A stretch of 35,479 nucleotides of DNA from an uncultured Bacteroidales bacterium (GTDB taxonomy: Bacteria; Bacteroidota; Bacteroidia; Bacteroidales; Muribaculaceae): the NCBI GenBank assembly GCA_946011725.1, contig CAMGBT010000018.1, positions 1 through 35,479 of the forward strand, given 5' to 3'. Position numbers and translations under genes: made by a program. Positions within the stretch are counted from its first letter, which is position 1. The number at the start of each line of letters is the position of its first letter. Shown here in pieces: positions 16,379 to 35,388 of this stretch. The notes under the pieces were generated by a model that saw nothing but the letters and a program-made list of their open reading frames with translations, was not told the DNA's origin and ran no database searches.

Positions 16379-17755
16379 TTGAAATCGATCAGACACACAT
16401 ATAATACTATAGTGAGCAGAGTCGTGATGCAGGCGATAATGGTGATTGGTTTGGCTGTGGCTTTTGATGCTGCGGCTCAGCAACGGTCGTTGCCGTCGTA
16501 TATCGTGTTGGAGCACTTTGCGCCGGAGGTGACGCTGTCGGTGTCGGATTCCACATTCTATGAGCGCTCGGCCGGGATTGTGTTCCCGGTGAACTCGTGG
16601 GCGATGCCATCGGATACCACGTGGCTGGAGGAACTGCACAGCTACTGGTTGCCGCTGTTGCAGGCCGATGGTTGGGCGCTAAGCCGTGTGGAACTGCGCG
16701 GTGCTGCCTCGCCCGAAGGCCCGTATGAGTGGAACGAAACGCTGAGCCGCAACCGTCTGAACACATTAATATATTATATAGGCTTGGAGCCGGACGAGGC
16801 GTCGGTCACCGCAGAGGACTATCCCGGTTTGGTGCACCGCATGCGGCGCGCGGGCGACCGCGACTACGCGCGCGTGGCGCAGATTGTGAGCCAAAATGAC
16901 GATGCGCGCCGCATCAAGCAGCGCTTGCAGAGCGATGCGGAGCTATGGCAGCGCATCCTGCACGTGTACTTCCCCGAACTGCGCACCGCGCGACTGATGC
17001 TGTACTTCACCAAGCCGTTGGAGCGGTTTTACTCGCACGTGGGCTTATTGCCGCCCGCTCCGCCCTTTACTGCAAAAACAGCTGTGTATGAGCCTTTTAA
17101 ACCATTATCGAGATACATTGTGAACCCGCCCATGATAGCGTTGTCGACCAACTTGGCCGCCTACGGCCTGTGCTTGGACAACTTTGGCTGGGCGCCGATG
17201 CCTAACATCTCTGTGGAGTACTTCCCACGCGGGCGCAACTGGTCGTTTATGGGCACATTCACCTTCCCTTACTTTCATCGTTGGAATCAAAACGAATTCT
17301 TCCAAATTCGCGACTACACCCTTGCTGCGCGGCGTTATTTCCCGCGGCAAGGCGAACTGTATACAGGCCTGTACGCGGGCGCATACGCGCAGGTGAACAA
17401 GTACGGCATCGGCCTCGGGCCCGACAAGGGCTGGCAGGGCGAAGGGTGGGGCGTGGGCCTCGCCGCCGGTTGGGCCACACGTCTGGGTGACAGCGGCTGG
17501 CGCATTGACCTCGGCTTGCAAGCCGGTTTCTATCAAACCAAATACGACCCATACGTCTACGGCAACCCCGTCACCGGCACTATCGATGGCGACTATTACT
17601 ACGACTACATCGGCCCGGTGAACCAATTCCGCAAGCGCAACCACCGCTTGAGTTGGTTCGGCCCCACGATGCTGCGCATCGCCATCAGTTACGATTTGCT
17701 TTACCACCGCACGCCCTCCGGTGCCACCTTCCGCAGAAAGGAGGTGATGCCATGA
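16379..17755 (+). CDS. DUF3575-type outer-membrane protein of pilus cassette 1
   Basis: A 458-residue secreted or outer-membrane protein. The N-terminal half holds an OmpA-like segment (VELRGAASPEGPYEWNETLS, about residues 104-123). The C-terminal half (about 245-445) is rich in aromatic beta-strands, as in DUF3575 porin-like proteins that accompany fimbrillin operons of Bacteroidales. TTG at 16379 is chosen as start because it yields a proper signal peptide with basic residues (MKSIRHTYNTIVSRVVMQAI, then a hydrophobic core ending AAAQQ). Starting at the internal ATG (16427) would lose all positive charge. The stop overlaps the next start (ATGA at 17752-17755) behind a strong Shine-Dalgarno sequence. 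Its role in pilus biogenesis is inferred from context; it is a paralogue in organisation of the gene at 27642. Confidence 0.75.
   Translation: MKSIRHTYNTIVSRVVMQAIMVIGLAVAFDAAAQQRSLPSYIVLEHFAPEVTLSVSDSTFYERSAGIVFPVNSWAMPSDTTWLEELHSYWLPLLQADGWALSRVELRGAASPEGPYEWNETLSRNRLNTLIYYIGLEPDEASVTAEDYPGLVHRMRRAGDRDYARVAQIVSQNDDARRIKQRLQSDAELWQRILHVYFPELRTARLMLYFTKPLERFYSHVGLLPPAPPFTAKTAVYEPFKPLSRYIVNPPMIALSTNLAAYGLCLDNFGWAPMPNISVEYFPRGRNWSFMGTFTFPYFHRWNQNEFFQIRDYTLAARRYFPRQGELYTGLYAGAYAQVNKYGIGLGPDKGWQGEGWGVGLAAGWATRLGDSGWRIDLGLQAGFYQTKYDPYVYGNPVTGTIDGDYYYDYIGPVNQFRKRNHRLSWFGPTMLRIAISYDLLYHRTPSGATFRRKEVMP
17737..17748 (+). promoter_or_regulatory. Near-perfect Shine-Dalgarno for the DUF5119 gene of cassette 1
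   Basis: AAAGGAGGTGAT lies inside the end of the DUF3575 gene, 7 nt (counted from AGGAGG) before ATG 17752. It complements 12 nt of the usual 16S rRNA 3' end. Other starts in this window lack such a sequence, except the equivalent junction at 28887-28897. Confidence 0.8.
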
Positions 17756-18912
17756 GTGCCATGCGCATGTTCGGGCCGCTCGCTGCCGTGATGATGGCTG
17801 CCAGCTCGTGCACCATCGAGCCGCCGCTGCACCTGCCGGCGGAGACCGTGGTGGTGGACCTGCCCATCGTCATCACCGACTTGGAAGTGGTGTGGGACAC
17901 CGATGTCGACTGGCAGAGCGAGTGGTTCTACACCTGGGAGCAGGAGGATATCGACCGCTGGGGCGAACTGGCATACCCCGTGCCGCGCAGCTACGAAGTG
18001 CGGCGCTACTACCTGGGCGAGCAACCCGGCGCGCCGCACACCACGGTCGACGGCACCACCTTGCTCAACACCACCTACCGCAGCCGCTACAACTTCGGCT
18101 ACTACGACCTGCTGGCATGGAGCAACATCTACTCCGAAGACCAAACGCAAGTGGTGGTCATCGACGATTCCAACCTCGACTACGTGTGGGCCACCACCAC
18201 GCGCAGCCGCTACCCGCTCAGCATCCCCGCGCTCAAGGACCAGCCGCTGCCGCACAACCATCCCGAAATCTTCTACTCCGCTTACGAGCAGGACATCCAC
18301 ATCAGTCACGATCCCGCTGATTACGACTACTTCGACCAGGCGGAGAACGTGTGGGTGAAGCGCTTGAAGTGCGAGATGCAGCCGCTGGTCTACATCTACT
18401 TGGTGCAAGTGGTGGTGCGCAACAATGTCGACGGCCTGATTGTGGGTCCGTCGCAGTCGACGGTGCTCAGCGGCGTGGCCTCCGGGGTGAACGTGACCAC
18501 CGGCGCCACCGTGCACGAATCCACCAACGTAATCTTCGACATGCGCATGAAGACCGATTTGCCCTACCGCGACGGCGTGCGCGCCGACATCATGGGCGGC
18601 AAACTCACCACCTTCGGCCTGTGCGACATGCCCTCGTGGAGCGCGAGCCGCGGCAAGAGTTTCGCCGGTCGCGCCGATGTCGACAACTATCTGATGTTAG
18701 GCCTGCATTTCAGCAACGGTGCCGACTCCACCTACACCTACGAAGTGACCGACCAACTGCGTCGCCAGCCCCACGGCGGCATCATCACCATCGAAATCGC
18801 GGCCGACACCATCACTGTGCCTGTCTCCCCCGGCGGCGGTGGCGGCGGTTCGATGTTCGACCCCAACGTCAACCCCTACGAGCCCGAAGAACCAACCGAA
18901 ATAGAAATATAA
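17752..18912 (+). CDS. DUF5119-type pilus-associated lipoprotein (cassette 1)
   Basis: A 386-residue lipoprotein. MSAMRMFGPLAAVMMAASSC is a type II signal peptide with the lipobox Cys at residue 20. The body is beta-rich and resembles DUF5119 proteins, which sit in Bacteroidales fimbrillin operons and look like Mfa2/FimB-type anchors. Near the C-terminus is a Gly-rich linker (PGGGGGGSMFDPN) and an acidic Pro/Glu tail. ATG 17752 is chosen over in-frame codons inside the preceding gene because it overlaps the preceding stop (ATGA) and sits behind a strong Shine-Dalgarno. A surface anchor or assembly role is inference from family context. The next gene, a fimbrillin, starts 23 nt downstream. Confidence 0.8.
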   Translation: MSAMRMFGPLAAVMMAASSCTIEPPLHLPAETVVVDLPIVITDLEVVWDTDVDWQSEWFYTWEQEDIDRWGELAYPVPRSYEVRRYYLGEQPGAPHTTVDGTTLLNTTYRSRYNFGYYDLLAWSNIYSEDQTQVVVIDDSNLDYVWATTTRSRYPLSIPALKDQPLPHNHPEIFYSAYEQDIHISHDPADYDYFDQAENVWVKRLKCEMQPLVYIYLVQVVVRNNVDGLIVGPSQSTVLSGVASGVNVTTGATVHESTNVIFDMRMKTDLPYRDGVRADIMGGKLTTFGLCDMPSWSASRGKSFAGRADVDNYLMLGLHFSNGADSTYTYEVTDQLRRQPHGGIITIEIAADTITVPVSPGGGGGGSMFDPNVNPYEPEEPTEIEI

Positions 18913-18935: not shown

Positions 18936-20300
18936 ATGAGAATTAAGAATTTAATACTAATTTTGACGGGCGCTGCCACCTTGGCAAGCTGTGCCGGCCA
19001 CGATGTCCTCAGCGATGAAGACCTCCGCGGCGAGCGCGCTGACCAAGTGATGGCTTTCAGTGTGCTGTCGTCGAACCTCGGCCGCGCCACCGCCATGGAA
19101 GCGGCCGGACACACTGACTTTGGCGTCTTTGGCTACAAAGGCACCAACGGATACTGGGCGCCCAAAAACCCCGGCGACTTGGTGATGCAAAACTACCAAG
19201 TGAAATACGGCGAGAGCGAAGTGTACGGCTCGCGCTGGTACTACGAAGGCGCCCGCCCCGGCCAGATCCTCAAGTATTGGGACTATTCCAAACCCTCGCA
19301 CTACTTTGCTGCCTACACACCATATAACGAGAGTAGCTCGTTCTCGGTTTTGCCAAATATTCCACTGGACGGCACGTATAATTTCAGCATCACACTGAAT
19401 GGACTGAAGGCATTCTACCACGTGAACGAGCGCGACGACAAGGAAGCCATGTGCGCCGCCACCAAAGTTGACAAGGCCGACTATGGTCAGGAAGTGCCGC
19501 TCACGTTCCACCATCTCAACGCCATCATCCAACTTGCCTTCCGCAGCAACATCCCCGGCTACACCGTGGAACTGCTCGACCTCGTGCCCGAAGACGTTAC
19601 GGTCAAGACCGGCGAGGGCGAGGGCCAAACCACCGCGGCGGCTCGCGGCGTGCAGCTTACTCCCGCCACCGAAACGGCCGCCAATAAGCCCATTAGCTGG
19701 GCATCCGGCACCGCTTACCCCCAATCATCGCCTACCGATAACTATATCACCTCGGCGCAGATGACTGTGAGCCAATTGTTTAGCCCTTTAGCTACTGTGG
19801 CCGTGTCCAACGCCACTTTCACCGATTCCAACCTTGAGTTTGCGCTCGACGACACCGATGCCGCCGTGAAGACGTTCCCCATCAGCGCCGCTTCGGACTA
19901 CACCCCGCTCAAGAGCCAATTCTATGCCCTGCCGCAAGACCCGCACCATGCCGAATCGAGGCGTGAAACCAGTTTCACCGTGCACGTCACCTACCGCCTC
20001 ATCCCCAACGATGGCGCGGCGCCGACCACGGTGTACGATGCGCGCGTGTTCATCCCGGCCGACAAGTGCGCGTGGACCTTCGGCAAGCGCTACCTCTACC
20101 GCTTCACCATCACCACCGGCTCAACCGGCGTGACCAATCCCTGCACGCCGGTCTACGACGACGGCAACACGCCGCTACCCTACGTCGACCCGCGCGACCC
20201 GCGAGTGCCTACCAATAAGGCGCTGCTGCCGATAGTGTTCGACGGCGTCACCGTCAACAGCTACACCACCGAAACAATCCATTACGAAAATATCAACTAA
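18936..20300 (+). CDS. Fimbrillin family lipoprotein 1 (cassette 1)
   Basis: A 454-residue pilin precursor of the type V (fimbrillin) class. The lipoprotein signal peptide MRIKNLILILTGAATLASC has its Cys at residue 19. Arg50 in SSNLGRATAM is a candidate site for the gingipain-like arginine cleavage that releases the mature pilin and opens the donor-strand groove. The C-terminus (ALLPIVFDGVTVNSY onward) would supply the donor strand. It is clearly homologous to the next gene, sharing LAFRSNIPGYTV, DARVFIPADKC, YLYRFTITT and DPRVPTNKALLPIVFDGV. Its codon choice is more GC-rich than that of the next gene, hinting at lower expression. It could be a minor or tip-proximal subunit. Family is secure; cleavage and position in the pilus are inferred. 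Confidence 0.82.
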   Translation: MRIKNLILILTGAATLASCAGHDVLSDEDLRGERADQVMAFSVLSSNLGRATAMEAAGHTDFGVFGYKGTNGYWAPKNPGDLVMQNYQVKYGESEVYGSRWYYEGARPGQILKYWDYSKPSHYFAAYTPYNESSSFSVLPNIPLDGTYNFSITLNGLKAFYHVNERDDKEAMCAATKVDKADYGQEVPLTFHHLNAIIQLAFRSNIPGYTVELLDLVPEDVTVKTGEGEGQTTAAARGVQLTPATETAANKPISWASGTAYPQSSPTDNYITSAQMTVSQLFSPLATVAVSNATFTDSNLEFALDDTDAAVKTFPISAASDYTPLKSQFYALPQDPHHAESRRETSFTVHVTYRLIPNDGAAPTTVYDARVFIPADKCAWTFGKRYLYRFTITTGSTGVTNPCTPVYDDGNTPLPYVDPRDPRVPTNKALLPIVFDGVTVNSYTTETIHYENIN

Positions 20301-27641: not shown

Positions 27642-28904
27642 ATGAATTTACTGCACAAAATAGCTGTCGCCATTCTCATGGCGTCTACTGCTATCGTCGC
27701 CTCTGCGGTGGTGCAGGATTCTGTACGCATATATTTCAGACAAAGTAGGATTAATTTGGAAATGTCGTTGCATGGCAACGACACCGCGCTCTCTGCGATT
27801 AGAGACCGCATTAGTTGTCAGTACCCTGATAGCCTGTTTCGGTTGCAACGCTTGGAAGTGGTCGGTGCGGCATCGCCCGAAGGCTCCATAGCGTTCAACC
27901 GATGGCTTTCGGAGCGCCGTGCCGAGGTGCTGTTCAACTACTTCGGCCAATTGGAGCAGCTTCCTGATTCGATGATGTCCTTAACTTTTGTGGGCCGCGA
28001 CTGGCAGGGCCTCATCCGCATGGTCGAAGCCGATGCCAACGTGCCTTATCAATCGGAAGTGCTCGATCTCTTGCACGAAATCGTGGCGCATAACGGCGAG
28101 CCGTTCGACGGCCTCGACGCCGTGGCCTGGCTCAAGCATCTGCGTGGCGGCAAGCCCTACCTCTACATGTACCGCCACCTCTTCCCCGAGTTGCGAGCTT
28201 CGCAATTGCGGCTGTGGTACGCCTCCGTGTGGTACCTCCGCAAGTTGCAGTCCGCTCCTCTTACCGCTTTCCCCACACCTCTCACCTCGCGTCCCGAAGA
28301 ACTCTCACCTCTCACCCCATACTTCTTGCCTAAGAAATCGCCGCTATATTTGGCGCTGAAAACCAACCTGTTATACGACGCGCTGCTCATCCCGTCGATA
28401 GGCGCAGAGGTGTACCTCGGCGGCAACTTCTCCGTGGCAGCCAACTGGTCATACGGCTGGTGGAAAACCGACCATCACCACTGGTACTGGCGCGCTTACG
28501 GCGGCGACGTGGCCGTACGCTATTGGTTCGGCCAAGCCGCCCACCAAAAGCCGCTCACCGGCCATCACATCGGAGTGTACGCCCAAGCGTTCACTTACGA
28601 CTTCGAGGCCGGTGGCAAGGGCCAGATTGCAGGCCGTCCCGGCGGCTCGATTTGGGACAAGTGCCACGTGGGCGCCGGCATCGAGTACGGCTACTCGCTG
28701 CCCATCCGCCGCCGCCTCAAGCTCGATTTCACCATTGGTCTGGGCTACGTGGGCGGTCAGTACTGGGAGTACAAGCCCGTGGACGACTGCTACGTGTGGC
28801 AAGCTACCAAACAGCGCCACTGGTGGGGACCCACCAAGGCCGAGGTGTCGTTGGTGTGGCTCATCGGCCGCGACAACGTTAACCGGAAAGGAGGTGAGCA
28901 ATGA
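27642..28904 (+). CDS. DUF3575 outer-membrane protein of pilus cassette 2
   Basis: A 420-residue protein. A signal peptide (MNLLHKIAVAILMASTAIVASA) is followed by an OmpA-like segment (LEVVGAASPEGSIAFNRWLS, about residues 71-90) matching the equivalent region of the cassette 1 protein. A linker rich in Pro/Thr/Ser (about 214-233) leads to a classic DUF3575 barrel-like domain (LALKTNLLYDALLIPSIGAE, about 238 onward; YGWWKTDHHHWYWRAYGGD). The gene order DUF3575, DUF5119, fimbrillin is typical of Bacteroidales type V pilus loci, where it may assist export or anchoring (inference). The stop overlaps the next ATG (ATGA at 28901-28904) behind a strong Shine-Dalgarno sequence. Confidence 0.85.
   Translation: MNLLHKIAVAILMASTAIVASAVVQDSVRIYFRQSRINLEMSLHGNDTALSAIRDRISCQYPDSLFRLQRLEVVGAASPEGSIAFNRWLSERRAEVLFNYFGQLEQLPDSMMSLTFVGRDWQGLIRMVEADANVPYQSEVLDLLHEIVAHNGEPFDGLDAVAWLKHLRGGKPYLYMYRHLFPELRASQLRLWYASVWYLRKLQSAPLTAFPTPLTSRPEELSPLTPYFLPKKSPLYLALKTNLLYDALLIPSIGAEVYLGGNFSVAANWSYGWWKTDHHHWYWRAYGGDVAVRYWFGQAAHQKPLTGHHIGVYAQAFTYDFEAGGKGQIAGRPGGSIWDKCHVGAGIEYGYSLPIRRRLKLDFTIGLGYVGGQYWEYKPVDDCYVWQATKQRHWWGPTKAEVSLVWLIGRDNVNRKGGEQ
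28887..28897 (+). promoter_or_regulatory. Near-perfect Shine-Dalgarno for the DUF5119 gene of cassette 2
   Basis: AAAGGAGGTGA inside the end of the DUF3575 gene, 6 nt (counted from AGGAGG) before ATG 28901. It encodes RKGG here, whereas the equivalent site of cassette 1 is read in another frame as RKEV, so the nucleotide motif rather than the peptide is conserved. Confidence 0.8.
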
Positions 28905-29911
28905 TCCGATTCATCCGCCTGTTCAGCCTGCTGTGCTTGCTCCCGCTCCTCACCGCCTGCGAACATAAGGAGCTGTGCTACCAACACCCTCACGTGGGCC
29001 AAATCCGCGTGGAGTTCGATTGGATGTACGCGCCCGAGGCCAACCCGGCCGGCATGTGCGTGCTATTCTACCCCGTGGATGGCGGCGAGCCCATTCGCTA
29101 CGACTTCCGCGGCACCACCGGCGGCCAGGTGCAACTCCGCTCCGGCTCCTACTTGGTGATGTGCTACAATAATGATACCGAGGCCGTGCTCTTCAGCGGC
29201 ATCAATAATTTCTTCACCCATACGCTGTACACCCGCGCCGGCAATGTGCTCGAGCCTATCTACGGTAACGGCGCCAACTACGCGCCGCGCGCCGACGACG
29301 AGCCGGTGGTGATCTGTCCCGACCAAATGTGGGGTTCTGTGGCCACCGAGATGGAGGTGGGCGACTTCGGCGTGCGCTATCACTCCCACCGATTGGACGG
29401 TCGCGCCACGGTGGTGGAAGTGCCCATCACCGAAGAGCAGGTGATTGTGCTGTATCCCCACGAACTCACTTGCACCTATACCTACGAGGTGCGCAATGTG
29501 TCGAACCTCAAGCACGTGTCGCAGATGTGCGCTTCGCTCTCCGGTATGGCCGGCCGCCTCACCGTGGCCGATGAATCGCTCAGCGCCGAGAGTGTTACCT
29601 TGCCCTTCGACGCCAAAAGCGACGGCAACTTCACCATTTACGGCCAATTCTACACCTTCGGCCGCAACCTCAACAACCCCGAACGCAACCGATTATTACT
29701 CTATATAATCTTAGACAACGGCGACAAGTTCCTATACGGATCCGATGCCGACCGATTTGATGTCACCGACCAGGTGATTAGCGCACTCGACCGCCACCAT
29801 GTGCACATCATAGTGGATGGTCTCGACCTTCCGCAGCCAATCGAAAACGGCCACGGCTTCTCCCCCTCGGTGGACGATTGGCAAGTGGTGGATGAAGTCA
29901 TTCAAATGTGA
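28901..29911 (+). CDS. DUF5119 pilus-associated lipoprotein (cassette 2)
   Basis: A 336-residue lipoprotein with the type II signal peptide MIRFIRLFSLLCLLPLLTAC (Cys20). The mature start EHKELCYQHPHVGQIRVEFD and the WMYAPEANPAGMCVLFYP block are hallmarks of the DUF5119 family, thought to be related to Mfa2/FimB-like pilus anchors. The rest is beta-rich without transmembrane segments, consistent with an outer-membrane-attached, surface-facing protein. ATG 28901 overlaps the DUF3575 stop and is preceded by a strong Shine-Dalgarno. The fimbrillin gene follows after 71 nt. Anchor function is inference. Confidence 0.87.
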   Translation: MIRFIRLFSLLCLLPLLTACEHKELCYQHPHVGQIRVEFDWMYAPEANPAGMCVLFYPVDGGEPIRYDFRGTTGGQVQLRSGSYLVMCYNNDTEAVLFSGINNFFTHTLYTRAGNVLEPIYGNGANYAPRADDEPVVICPDQMWGSVATEMEVGDFGVRYHSHRLDGRATVVEVPITEEQVIVLYPHELTCTYTYEVRNVSNLKHVSQMCASLSGMAGRLTVADESLSAESVTLPFDAKSDGNFTIYGQFYTFGRNLNNPERNRLLLYIILDNGDKFLYGSDADRFDVTDQVISALDRHHVHIIVDGLDLPQPIENGHGFSPSVDDWQVVDEVIQM

Positions 29912-29982
29912 TTTTATCCCTAATAAAGTAAGAATCAACTAAATACAAACAAAATTATTATTAACTAAAAAACTTTTTGCGA

Positions 29983-31149
29983 ATGAAAAAGTATTTCCTC
30001 GGAGCAGCTGCCCTCTTGGCCCTGACCGCCTGCTCCAACGACGAAACCGTCGACCTCAACCAGGACGGCAACGTGATCTCCTTCGCCGTCACCGCCAACA
30101 ATCCCTCGCGTGCCGCTACTGGCGAGGTGTTCAACAACAACGCCCTGCCCACTGACTTCACTGTTTACGCAGCTTACGCTGGCCACACCTACTTCCAAAA
30201 CGAAACCTTCACCAGACAAGGCGCAACTTCTAACTACAACAGCGCCAATACTCACTACTGGCCTGCTGTTGACGGCATCAAAAAAGTAACCTTCGTGGCT
30301 TTCCGTAATGCAGGTGACAACCTCTCTACCAACTTCAATTGGAAGCCTGATGATGCTTCCACACTCAGCTACACAGTACCTGCAACAGCCGCCGAACAAA
30401 CCGACTTCATCTACGCTGTTACGAATTCTCAAAGACCTACCGGTGGTCAAGTTGGCCTCAACTTCCGCCACGCTCTGGCTCAAGTGGTGTTCAAAGCTAA
30501 AGTAACCAACCCCAACCTCTTTGTTGAAATCGCGGGCGTAAGCGTCTGCAACGCCAAAAACACAGGTATTTTCACCTTCCCGTTTGCTAATGTAACCGAT
30601 ACTAATCACGAAGATGACCAAGAAGGTGCATTCACATTCGACGATACCTACACTCAAGGTTCATGGTCTGCTCAAACCGGCAAGGTTAATTATGTCCTTT
30701 CCTTCGGCAAAGTAGATATCGCCAATGGTCACACCGAAAACCTCACAGCCTACGATCAACCTCGTAAAACCGATGCTAACACCCTGCTCCTCCTGCCGCA
30801 AAACACCGCTGCTTGGAATCTTACTTCCGGCAAACCTGCTTCGCAAGACGGTGCTTACTTCCTGGTAAAATGCCGCATCCGCAACGTTGCCAATGGCACC
30901 TCTGTTGACACCGCTCGCGACGTATACCTCTGGGGCTCTAATACGGAATATAAGGAAGTTGCTATTCCTGCTACTTTCAACTGGGAACAAGGCAAGAAAT
31001 ACATCATCACCTTCGTATTCGGTAACGGCAACGGTGGTTACAATCCCGAACCGGATACTCCCGAACCCGTGCTCGTGCCCATCAGCTTCACTGTCTCTGT
31101 TGACGACTTCGCCACAGTGTCTGAAGAAGTTAAAATGGAAGAACCTTAA
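29983..31149 (+). CDS. Fimbrillin family lipoprotein (cassette 2, likely stalk subunit)
   Basis: A 388-residue fimbrillin precursor. Signal peptide MKKYFLGAAALLALTAC (Cys17); Arg43 in NNPSRAATGE is a candidate maturation cleavage site, comparable to Arg50 of the cassette 1 pilins. The body shows the repeated beta-sandwich pattern of fimbrillins (NFRHALAQVVFKAKVTNPNL, about 164-183) and ends in a Pro-rich linker and a final strand (VLVPISFTVSVDDF). ATG 29983 is chosen; the TTG two codons upstream is less likely. Codons are skewed to GCT/GGT/GTT relative to neighbours, as for an abundant protein. It is distant in sequence from the two cassette 1 fimbrillins. A 9-bp hairpin separates it from the next gene. 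Confidence 0.82.
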   Translation: MKKYFLGAAALLALTACSNDETVDLNQDGNVISFAVTANNPSRAATGEVFNNNALPTDFTVYAAYAGHTYFQNETFTRQGATSNYNSANTHYWPAVDGIKKVTFVAFRNAGDNLSTNFNWKPDDASTLSYTVPATAAEQTDFIYAVTNSQRPTGGQVGLNFRHALAQVVFKAKVTNPNLFVEIAGVSVCNAKNTGIFTFPFANVTDTNHEDDQEGAFTFDDTYTQGSWSAQTGKVNYVLSFGKVDIANGHTENLTAYDQPRKTDANTLLLLPQNTAAWNLTSGKPASQDGAYFLVKCRIRNVANGTSVDTARDVYLWGSNTEYKEVAIPATFNWEQGKKYIITFVFGNGNGGYNPEPDTPEPVLVPISFTVSVDDFATVSEEVKMEEP

Positions 31150-32790: not shown

Positions 32791-32937
32791 GCCGGCCGGC
32801 AGCCCGCTTTTTTGTCACGGCTGCGCGGCTTTAGCTGCGCTCTCGGCGCAGCCGAGAAACCGCCGTCGGCCTGCCGCGCCCGCTATCAGGGCTTTTGGCG
32901 CGGATTCTGCTGCTTTCTGTGGAAATTTGCTCCAAAA

Positions 32938-32969
32938 TTTGCGCATAATCGAAATAATCACTATATTTG
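32938..32969 (+). promoter_or_regulatory. Promoter of the large surface-protein gene
   Basis: TTTG at 32938-32941, a 20-nt spacer and TATATTTG at 32962-32969, about 60 nt before ATG 33031; a perfect Bacteroidetes match. It excludes the long upstream in-frame extension as coding. Confidence 0.8.
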
Positions 32970-33030
32970 CGCTGTTGTTGGCTTAGCCTTTGTTTTTTGC
33001 CAATTTGTCTTACAAATTACCTTTAATACT

Positions 33031-35388
33031 ATGCGAACAGTTATTTTGATTGCTTTGGCGGCTTTGCCGCTTGCGGGCGTGGCGCAGGTGCCGCAGCGCT
33101 CGGTTGATGTGTTGGAAATGCGTCAGTTGTCGGCGGTTGCTGCGCCGGCACGTGTGGCTCCGTTGGAAGCGGATAACCCGGCTCCGTTGGAGAATGTGGT
33201 GGCTACGCTTTCCGCTGATTATAAGCACGTTACGTTGTCGTGGTCGCCGGCCTCCGAGGTGGGCGAAAACGGCGGCACGGTGGATGTGAGCAAGGTGGTG
33301 TATTACGTGTTTGATGCGTTCGGCTCCTATTACGACCCCGCCATCGCCACCACCACCGAAACCTCAATCACTTTCGACTATTCCGACCTCCACGGGCAGG
33401 ACTTCGTGGCCTATCAAGTAACTGCCGGCGTGGACGAAAGTTACTATTCCTTGGCCACCACTTCGAACGTGTTGGCGGTGGGCGAGCCCGACGCCGTGCC
33501 GCTGTTCGAAGGCTTCGCCGACACGCAGTTGCAGCAGCAATGGTTTGCCAACGCCGCCGGCTACGTGGTGGCTACCATGGTGAAAGACAATGAGATAAGT
33601 GTGGACATCGACTCCTCCGACGCGGCTTACCTCAACTCGGCCGATGGCGACAACGGCCTGCTGATGGTGGTGCCGATGGAGGAGAATGCCTCGATGATAT
33701 TGATGTCGACCAAGGCATCGTTGGCCGGCGCGGCTGAGCCGGTGTTGGAGTTCAAATACCAAGGCAAGGGTGGGGTGGTCAACGTGTTCGCCACCTCCGA
33801 CGGCGCTGATTATCAGCTCATTCACTCGGTAAACCTGCTCGACGCGCCCGCGGAAGCGTGGGCGCTCTGCCGCGTGGACCTCGCCGCATTCGCCGACAAG
33901 CCCTTTGTGCAGTTCTACCTCGAAGTGGTGGGCGCACACAACACTGCCGACCACGCCTACCGCGTGTGCCTCGACGACATCCGCCTGCGCCAACTCGCTG
34001 AGGATGTGCGCATTACCCACATCACTGCGCCCTCGCGCGTGGCCGCCGGCGAGAGCTTCACCGCCACCGTGGCCGTGCAGAATATCGGCACGAAAGCATC
34101 GCAAAGCGTTGGCGTGGCTCTCGCCAACCAATTCGGCCTTGTCGGTGCTGAGGCAACTGAAATCCTTGACCCTGAGCAAGTTATGCAGTTCGCGTTCGAG
34201 GTGCCCGCGGGCGTTACCGCTGTCAACGGCCTCGACCTCACCGCCACGCTGACGCTCTCCGGCGACGAGTACGCTGTCAACAATGAGATGACAAAGCATG
34301 TGGACGTGGCCATGCCGCAATGGCCGGCGGCCGACGGGCTAACTGCCACTGACTTAGGTGATTACAAGGTGGCACTGTCGTGGCAGGCGCCCCAATTCGA
34401 CGCCACCGCCGCCGTGCACCGCGTTGAGGACTTCGAGAATCCGCAGTATGAACTGTTCACCATCAGCGACTTCGGCGGCTGGACGCTCCTCGACCGCGAT
34501 GGCAGCAAAACTTACACCTTCCTGCGCGACACCAACAACCCCAACCGCACCAAGCCGCAAGCGTTCGTGCTGTTCGACCCCGTGGCCGCCGGCGTGCCCT
34601 CCGAGTCGCTCATCGACGTGCCCACCCACAGCGGCGACCGTATGTTGATGGCGTTCAGCGCCCAAGGGCAGAATGATAACTGGCTGATTTCGCCGCAGTT
34701 AAGCGGCGAGGCGCAAACCATCGCCTTCTACGCCAAGAGTTTCACCATCGCCTATCCCGAGAGCTTCGAGGTGCTGTATTCCACCACCGACACCAACGCG
34801 GATTCGTTCGTGAAAATTGATGCCGTGGACAACTATCCCGCCGACAACCGCGTGTCGGAAGACTGGACCGAGTACCGCGCCGCGCTGCCCGCCGGTGCGC
34901 GCTACTTCGCCGTGCGCCACAATGCCTACGACACCTACGCGCTGATGCTCGACGACTTCACCTTCGATGCCGCCCCATCGCTGCCTGCCGACCTGCAAGT
35001 GCTCGGTTACAACCTCTACCGCGACGGTCAACTGCTTAACGCTCAGCTGCTTGAAGCTCCGGCCTACACCGATGCGGTGGGCGCCTACGGCACCTACTCC
35101 TACCAAGTGAGCGTGGTTTACAACCACGGCGAATCCGCCGCCACCCAACCCGCCACCATCGACCTGGCCAAGCAAGACAGCGCTCTCGACCCCGCCGCCG
35201 ACGAGGTGACCATCACCGCCGCCAATGGCTACGTGACCATCACCGCCCCCGCCCCCATCGAGGTTGAAATCATTGACCTCGCCGGCCGCACGCTCTACCG
35301 CGCCACCGGCACGACCCACCGCGTGCCCCTCCCCTCCGGCCTCTACATAGCCAAAGCCGCCACCGCCGCCGCCAAGCTCCGCCTGTAA
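33031..35388 (+). CDS. Secreted multidomain surface protein with choice-of-anchor-J-like domains and C-terminal sorting-like tail
   Basis: A 785-residue secreted protein. The signal peptide MRTVILIALAALPLAGVAQV is followed by a fibronectin-III-like strand-rich domain (ENVVATLSADYKHVTLSWSP). Two cleaved-adhesin / choice-of-anchor-J-like beta-jelly-roll regions follow (roughly residues 155-320 and 470-650; EDFENPQ, NDNWLISPQLSGEAQTIAFY, RYFAVRHNAYDTYALMLDDF). Between them is a CARDB-like domain (ITAPSRVAAGESFTATVAVQ). The C-terminus (VEIIDLAGRTLYRATG ... LPSGLYIAKA) resembles the type A sorting domain of type IX secretion substrates. ATG 33031 is chosen because the promoter lies immediately upstream. 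It is probably surface-exposed and adhesive or peptidase-associated (inference); no catalytic motif is seen. Confidence 0.78.
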   Translation: MRTVILIALAALPLAGVAQVPQRSVDVLEMRQLSAVAAPARVAPLEADNPAPLENVVATLSADYKHVTLSWSPASEVGENGGTVDVSKVVYYVFDAFGSYYDPAIATTTETSITFDYSDLHGQDFVAYQVTAGVDESYYSLATTSNVLAVGEPDAVPLFEGFADTQLQQQWFANAAGYVVATMVKDNEISVDIDSSDAAYLNSADGDNGLLMVVPMEENASMILMSTKASLAGAAEPVLEFKYQGKGGVVNVFATSDGADYQLIHSVNLLDAPAEAWALCRVDLAAFADKPFVQFYLEVVGAHNTADHAYRVCLDDIRLRQLAEDVRITHITAPSRVAAGESFTATVAVQNIGTKASQSVGVALANQFGLVGAEATEILDPEQVMQFAFEVPAGVTAVNGLDLTATLTLSGDEYAVNNEMTKHVDVAMPQWPAADGLTATDLGDYKVALSWQAPQFDATAAVHRVEDFENPQYELFTISDFGGWTLLDRDGSKTYTFLRDTNNPNRTKPQAFVLFDPVAAGVPSESLIDVPTHSGDRMLMAFSAQGQNDNWLISPQLSGEAQTIAFYAKSFTIAYPESFEVLYSTTDTNADSFVKIDAVDNYPADNRVSEDWTEYRAALPAGARYFAVRHNAYDTYALMLDDFTFDAAPSLPADLQVLGYNLYRDGQLLNAQLLEAPAYTDAVGAYGTYSYQVSVVYNHGESAATQPATIDLAKQDSALDPAADEVTITAANGYVTITAPAPIEVEIIDLAGRTLYRATGTTHRVPLPSGLYIAKAATAAAKLRL

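Follow-up and report, generated by a model that had tools for sequence, protein, structure and literature searches.

The window, that is, the whole 35,479-nt stretch of DNA analysed here (contig CAMGBT010000018.1, from an uncultured member of the Muribaculaceae), carries two fimbrial-type cassettes, in both of which Pfam matches give the gene order DUF3575, DUF5119 and fimbrillin-like gene (Table 1). Genes were called with a simple open reading frame (ORF) and codon-score script rather than a trained gene finder, and the DUF3575 gene of cassette 1, missed by our own DUF3575 profile, was detected by Pfam. At the DUF3575/DUF5119 junction of both cassettes, an extended Shine-Dalgarno (SD) sequence, AAAGGAGGTG, lies inside the 3'-terminal part of DUF3575, within 5-9 nt of the DUF5119 start and just 5' of an ATGA overlap of start and stop codon, the spacing from GGAGG to ATG being 7 nt in cassette 1 and 6 nt in cassette 2. 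In cassette 1 the SD is carried by the final DUF3575 codons, AGA AAG GAG GTG ATG CCA TGA. The coordinates bear out the original prediction, which had placed the motif at both junctions and had noted that it is read as a different peptide in each, RKEV in cassette 1 and RKGG in cassette 2; the two frames end in RKEVMP and RKGGEQ, respectively. The second cassette is adjoined by an 858-amino acid ORF with a Cleaved_Adhesin domain (window positions 32812-35388).

Table 1. Genes and junction features of the two fimbrial-type cassettes (positions are those of the window).
Feature	Position	Strand	Remarks
DUF3575 ORF, cassette 1	16379..17755	+	start codon uncertain; Pfam PF12099, E 1.1e-8
Extended SD AAAGGAGGTG, cassette 1	17737..17746	+	followed by AT at 17747-17748; AAAGGAGGTGAT spans 17737-17748
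ATGA start/stop overlap, cassette 1	17752..17755	+	ATG 17752-17754; TGA 17753-17755, closing the DUF3575 frame
DUF5119-like gene, cassette 1, probable lipoprotein	17752..18912	+	PF17145, E 0.0043, under the Pfam cut-off
Fimbrillin-like gene (Mfa_like_1), cassette 1	18936..20300	+	E 8.5e-12
DUF3575 ORF, cassette 2	27642..28904	+	Pfam, E 2.7e-38; C-terminus RKGGEQ
Extended SD AAAGGAGGTG, cassette 2	28887..28896	+	AAAGGAGGTGA spans 28887-28897
ATGA start/stop overlap, cassette 2	28901..28904	+	ATG 28901-28903; TGA 28902-28904
DUF5119 gene, cassette 2, probable lipoprotein	28901..29911	+	E 1.7e-67
Fimbrillin-like gene (Mfa_like_1), cassette 2	29977..31149	+	E 4.5e-15

A 16S rRNA end was searched for in the window's own assembly and not found, and such ends were recovered from 3 of the 15 genomes searched. 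Five of the six ends found, all from two same-family relatives (five copies), read GGAACACCUCC / GGCTGGAACACCTCCTTT, the sixth, from G012, being GGATCACC; the tail of the relatives (L312-L316) is GGAACACCTCC and not GGATCACCTCC, and the E. coli form of the tail was present in none of the 8 genomes in which it was looked for. With the relatives' tail, AAAGGAGGTG forms 10 contiguous base pairs, with a dG of -16.2 in cassette 1 and -16.7 in cassette 2. The complementarity of 12 nt that had been proposed holds with an E. coli-type tail and shrinks to these 10 contiguous pairs with that of the relatives. A strong SD was defined as one with dG <= -8. The first DUF5119, control, codon and chrA counts were made with the E. 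coli-type tail, which overstates pairing past GGAGGTG, and later ones with that of the relatives; on recounting with the latter, the DUF5119 and control numbers were the same at the -8 cut, and the chrA recount covered the own-genome pair only.

Of the 59 genomes of the window's family, 29 were found to carry DUF5119, as were 15 of 149 genomes of the order. The 74 DUF5119 loci collected, cassette 1 included, comprised 51 four-nt overlaps with an upstream DUF3575 gene, 3 longer overlaps, 7 separated DUF3575 pairs, 5 loci whose upstream ORF was unsuitable, being not DUF3575-like or past an internal stop (L010, L013, L081, L090 and L050), and 8 loci with no upstream ORF in reach; the counts exclude two weak matches (G099, G128) as well as a match interrupted by an internal stop (G012:C193). 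Across Bacteroidales a strong SD was found in 43 of the 51 four-nt DUF3575/DUF5119 overlaps, with dG <= -11 in 36 of the 51 and <= -13 in 19. The motif recurs at orthologous junctions as well as at the two paralogous ones, which supports the original prediction. Spacing was 6 nt in 36 of the 43 SD-bearing overlaps, which come under nine family labels, and all 14 four-nt overlaps from beyond the window's family had the SD; the sole locus from named relatives, that of an uncultured Prevotella (59% identity), has GAAAGGAGGTAGGAAATGA too. As opposed to the overlaps, none of the 7 separated DUF3575-DUF5119 pairs had a strong SD (Fisher p 2e-5, although p-values of this kind are too small because the sequences share descent). 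None of the 8 loci lacking a reachable upstream ORF had a dG <= -8 either, and the assumed start of L050 gave -8.3. Two of the 3 longer overlaps have an SD 5 to 8 nt 5' of the ATG, with the TAA or TAG further downstream, indicating that the SD tracks the start codon and not the stop. The remaining 8 of the 51 four-nt overlaps have no SD and are presumably still functional. This is a real and conserved signal acting at the level of the RNA, commonplace biochemistry elsewhere and unexpected in this phylum.

The original prediction had described the surrounding DNA as otherwise lacking such sites. This is so for the position of the motif, since among 23 four-nt overlaps in the window's own genome (20 stretches plus the window) only those of the two cassettes reached dG <= -8, and not for the motif itself, AAGGAGG occurring 6 times in the window against 2.8 expected (6 of 100 shuffles reach 6). 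Nor is the genome free of strong SDs elsewhere, as they are found at rpsR, at a chrA1/chrA2 pair and at a further coupled pair (L057). A strong SD was seen in 1 of 17 four-nt overlaps in 20 stretches of a second genome (G057), 5' of a mobilisation-type gene, and in all in 1 of 38 other four-nt overlaps over ∼400 kb of each of the two genomes. With 8 of 51 and 37 of 38 overlaps devoid of it, the SD is dispensable for coupling in general.

A census of the pattern AAAGGAGG-N5-7-ATGA gave 313 sites in 59 genomes, about five per genome, as compared to 51 for the reversed pattern. Reading 100 of the sites revealed 60 coupled junctions, 16 with a downstream ORF only and 24 with no ORF; coupling was thus seen for 60 of the 76 sites (79%) with a downstream ORF of at least 60 amino acids, whereas it was seen for 236 of 2286 ATGA of any kind (10%) in two samples. 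The 100 sites were distinct ones from among the matches listed (30 loci selected by the search program, the own-genome sites, and 60 regions roughly in list order); known DUF5119 sites and those of G015, G026 and G047 were passed over, and reading ended ahead of the remaining sites of G051, G031 and G002 and of G012, which is rich in repeats. In 40 sampled stretches outside the window, 3 full-pattern sites were found, none of them at a coupled junction, and 50 composition-matched scrambles gave 11 sites, a small number. Set against background, the coupling rate in the census indicates that strong SDs are few and lie mainly at coupled overlaps. The objection foreseen by the original prediction, namely that strong SDs might stand at many unrelated starts, applies in part, as 313 sites well exceed the 51 of the reversed pattern, yet 60 of the 100 read are coupled junctions. 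In G012 (L159), AAAGGAGGAAAGGATGA is listed repeatedly, often by contig ends, and is probably a repeated element rather than a set of junctions.

The fimbrial junction is not unique in having a strong SD, as the chromate transporter pair chrA1/chrA2 behaves alike. In 31 loci of this pair an SD was found in 19 of 26 overlaps, in several reading frames, and in 0 of 5 non-overlaps (p 0.005); the own-genome pair (L056, G000:C110:1606-1621) has an ATGA overlap and a dG of -16.6, its motif being read as EGG. For MreC/MreD, 30 loci gave 8 overlaps, and the 5 loci with dG <= -8 were 4 overlaps and one zero-gap junction; the caller used here was crude, accepting any neighbour, and some of the neighbours were not MreD. 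At this zero-gap junction, an mreC/mreD-type pair (L300), TAG is followed at once by ATG and a strong SD is present with no overlap, which is a counter-case to the tie between the two. From the 60 other downstream proteins found coupled in the census, 30 were compared with Pfam and 10 with PHROGs. Matches included LysO, FMN-binding proteins (which we take to be of the RnfG and NqrC type), YidD, MBOAT, TrkA, BatA, an ABC-2 permease and DUF6562, and our impression is that many of the coupled downstream products are membrane or exported partner proteins; cytosolic products (MutL, aldo/keto reductase, UvrB-interaction/CarD domains) and mobile-element genes (relaxase, YopX, RecT, endolysin-type) were coupled too. 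At L147, L151, L157, L218, L239, L245 and L131, AAAGGAGG lies at ATGA overlaps of phage- or mobile-type genes (YopX, amidase, endolysin, RecT, excisionase-like, relaxase). The own genome's rpsR (L072, G000:C1:65614-65631) has the extended SD CAAAGGAGGACTAAATCATG with a dG of -11.8, which agrees with published findings on rpsR in Bacteroidales, and its rpsU (L071) has an A-rich leader with no SD.

Since Lys-Gly-Gly is the usual C-terminus of DUF3575 proteins whose genes bear the SD, a need for the peptide had to be excluded: were this C-terminus conserved for its own sake, the likeness to an SD would be a by-product. Among 54 junctions (the 3 longer overlaps included), 45 bear the SD, and 35 of these read KGG or EGG. 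However, the first Gly codon in these 35 is GGA in 32 and GGG, which retains a G.U pair, in 3, and never GGC or GGT, although within gene bodies 62% of Gly residues are encoded by these two (probability 10^-15.7 given each gene's own usage), and the Lys codon is AAA in 32 of 32, as compared to 56% in gene bodies. The motif is moreover kept in another reading frame at WC1, L027, L077 and L084, and in the ten SD-bearing junctions other than these 35 the peptide is altered with the motif, or its AAAGGAG portion, preserved, the altered endings including KEVMP (cassette 1), ERGSR, TEEQQR, RRWMKW, KGA, KGV and KGD. The ends of DUF3575 genes elsewhere agree with this: in 25 of 35 matches the 3' end was read, 2 of them adjoining DUF5119, and of the 23 with no neighbouring DUF5119 only one has GGAGG within its last 30 nt. 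The unrelated chrA genes, for their part, show the same motif in several frames. Codon and frame data refute the peptide as sole cause, a reading to which we give scarcely any credence, and uphold the prediction that selection acts on the RNA. Selection for an extension past GGAGG is not clearly seen; 14 of the 35 junctions have GGT as their second Gly codon. In other operons, DUF3575 genes with good matches (L161-L167, L181 and L188) lack the KGG tail and terminate in a barrel-like strand (such as ...VYVF). The sequences themselves demonstrate that the motif is present and conserved, that it is tied to the overlap and that it is selected at the RNA level.

In light of these data the motif is probably a working SD for termination-reinitiation at the DUF3575/DUF5119 overlap. 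Such SD-driven re-initiation, which the original prediction had offered as one option, fits because the SD accompanies the overlap and is missing from all 7 separated pairs, and the arrangement suggests that the ribosome finishing the first fimbrial gene uses the SD to restart on the second. In Bacteroidia the anti-SD is reported to be sequestered in a pocket formed by bS21, bS18 and bS6 (PMC9976891); for Weeksellaceae an altered anti-SD has been reported. For the prfB frameshift, where an SD-like element just 5' of the UGA is kept in 72% (523/726) of Bacteroidia genomes, a pause has been hypothesized to allow the anti-SD to exit from this pocket (PMC8710568). From this hypothesis and the overlap data we infer that the terminating ribosome could pair with the SD and be set on the ATG. 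A ribosome translating DUF3575 would arrive at the TGA of the ATGA overlap, and the anti-SD, normally in its pocket, might gain time to leave in the terminating or post-termination complex. Once free, it could pair with AAAGGAGG, whose last G lies 7 nt from the TGA and 6 nt from the ATG in cassette 2 (one more in cassette 1), and this pairing would retain the small subunit on the mRNA and position it at the ATG, which begins 2 nt past the last sense codon. With the small subunit thus set on the ATG, output of the DUF5119 protein would be proportional to that of DUF3575. Reinitiation and release of the anti-SD at termination would on this account go together, and their benefit would be matched synthesis of the two partners. 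UGA is not strictly needed, since in two longer overlaps the SD is present although the stop is TAG or TAA, and these same two weaken a version confined to UGA (RF2). By construction, ATGA overlaps use TGA, a stop codon that closes 19% of the 248 long ORFs in one sampled genome and 30% of the 246 in the other.

We considered whether the SD could instead be the target of specialised ribosomes, in which a shortage of bS21 (or bS18) frees the anti-SD, permits de novo initiation on DUF5119 and makes fimbrial lipoprotein output report the state of the ribosome. F. johnsoniae ribosomes without bS21 are reported to gain initiation on strong-SD mRNAs, energies below -13 kcal/mol being typical of rpsU (PMC9976891), and both cassettes lie below this value, as do 19 of the 51 junctions, as judged by an energy program that differs from the one used in that work. 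The own rpsR has an extended SD as well, and pairing is stronger at the cassettes than there. The extended-SD genes of the cassettes are DUF5119 and not bS21 or bS18. A de novo signal should not require an overlap, yet it is missing from the separated pairs; -13 is reached by only the 19 junctions given above; and the own rpsU has no SD. We consider this reading unlikely; a link to bS21 or bS18, the other option in the original prediction, may exist, but nothing here favours it over constitutive re-initiation. It is less probable still that a hairpin hides the SD until translation of DUF3575 opens it. The minimum-energy fold of cassette 1 does pair a CACCTTCC stretch with the SD, but this SD is more open than in its shuffles (0.46 vs 0.36), and over 45 junctions mean openness was 0.49 as compared to 0.46 with codon-shuffled upstream sequence, only 13 of the 45 being more closed than their own shuffle mean. 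As openness does not fall under that of the shuffled controls, hairpin hiding is very unlikely to be a shared mechanism. A programmed frameshift akin to that of prfB, with an SD-like element driving slippage near the TGA to yield a DUF3575-DUF5119 fusion, would agree with an SD-to-UGA distance of mostly 7 nt, near the 6 nt between GGAGG and UGA in the prfB site quoted in PMC8710568. Neither cassette has CTT TGA, however, their last sense codons being CCA (cassette 1) and CAA (cassette 2), and in most SD-bearing overlaps the last residue is Arg, Lys or Leu; the two longer overlaps place the SD by the ATG and not by the stop, and a fusion would presumably bury the export signal of the downstream product. 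Longer overlaps and the tally of last codons lead us to reject programmed frameshifting, which is hardly credible as an explanation of the junctions. A search of the sampled stretches for the prfB frameshift site itself gave one match, which was spurious.

The best reading of these sequences is SD-assisted termination-reinitiation in bacteria reported to do without it, perhaps because termination gives the ribosome time to release its hidden anti-SD, by analogy with the proposal for prfB. More tentatively, and with rather less confidence than doubt, the anti-SD of Bacteroidales may be hidden at initiation and offered at termination, the SD being kept largely for handing the ribosome over across chosen overlapping pairs. 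If so, these pairs would be the fimbrial outer membrane protein and lipoprotein, the split chromate transporter, other membrane-complex pairs and some phage genes, and the speed of release at the stop codon would tune the ratios of partner proteins. Bacteroidia are the textbook case of indifference to the SD, and an RNA-level SD widely kept at selected overlaps implies that the ribosome, when in a defined state, may make use of its anti-SD after all. The junctions offer native, non-ribosomal reporters for direct tests of the ‘hidden anti-SD’ model and of its regulation, and an SD at an ATGA overlap may serve for building coupled expression in Bacteroides.

A literature search for both DUF names together found no paper, and one for SDs in Bacteroidetes with coupling, reinitiation or overlap found no report of such a signal in titles and abstract openings, subscription papers being mostly outside its scope. 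Two published studies count against our reading: in Prevotella bryantii its presence or omission did not appreciably alter reporter yield (PMC3155529), and Huber et al. (2019) found it at ∼10% or less of Bacteroidetes overlaps and concluded that reinitiation in this phylum makes no use of it (PMC6728339). In gene content and order both cassettes match the DUF3575-DUF5119-Mfa_like_1 fimbrial-type operons of Bacteroidales. Akin to the ATGA termination-reinitiation with an intragenic SD covered by that survey, the junctions described here combine a four-nt overlap, an SD within the last codons of the first gene and the usual spacing to the start; whereas the survey singles out Bacteroidetes as seeming to make no use of the SD for either de novo starts or reinitiation, here particular junctions keep a strong one. 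They share with the extended SDs of rpsU and rpsR, the latter a reported site of strong SDs in Bacteroidales, a very strong SD despite the hidden anti-SD and a similar energy. Those are ribosomal genes, with feedback by bS21 shown for rpsU (PMC9976891), whereas the genes here are fimbrial and transporter genes and the SD is tied to an overlap. With the prfB frameshift (PMC8710568), described as inefficient in F. johnsoniae (PMC12421855), they have in common that an SD-like element lies a few nt 5' of the UGA where the ribosome waits, but here no slippery codon was seen, no fusion is expected, and a start codon lies 2 nt ahead.
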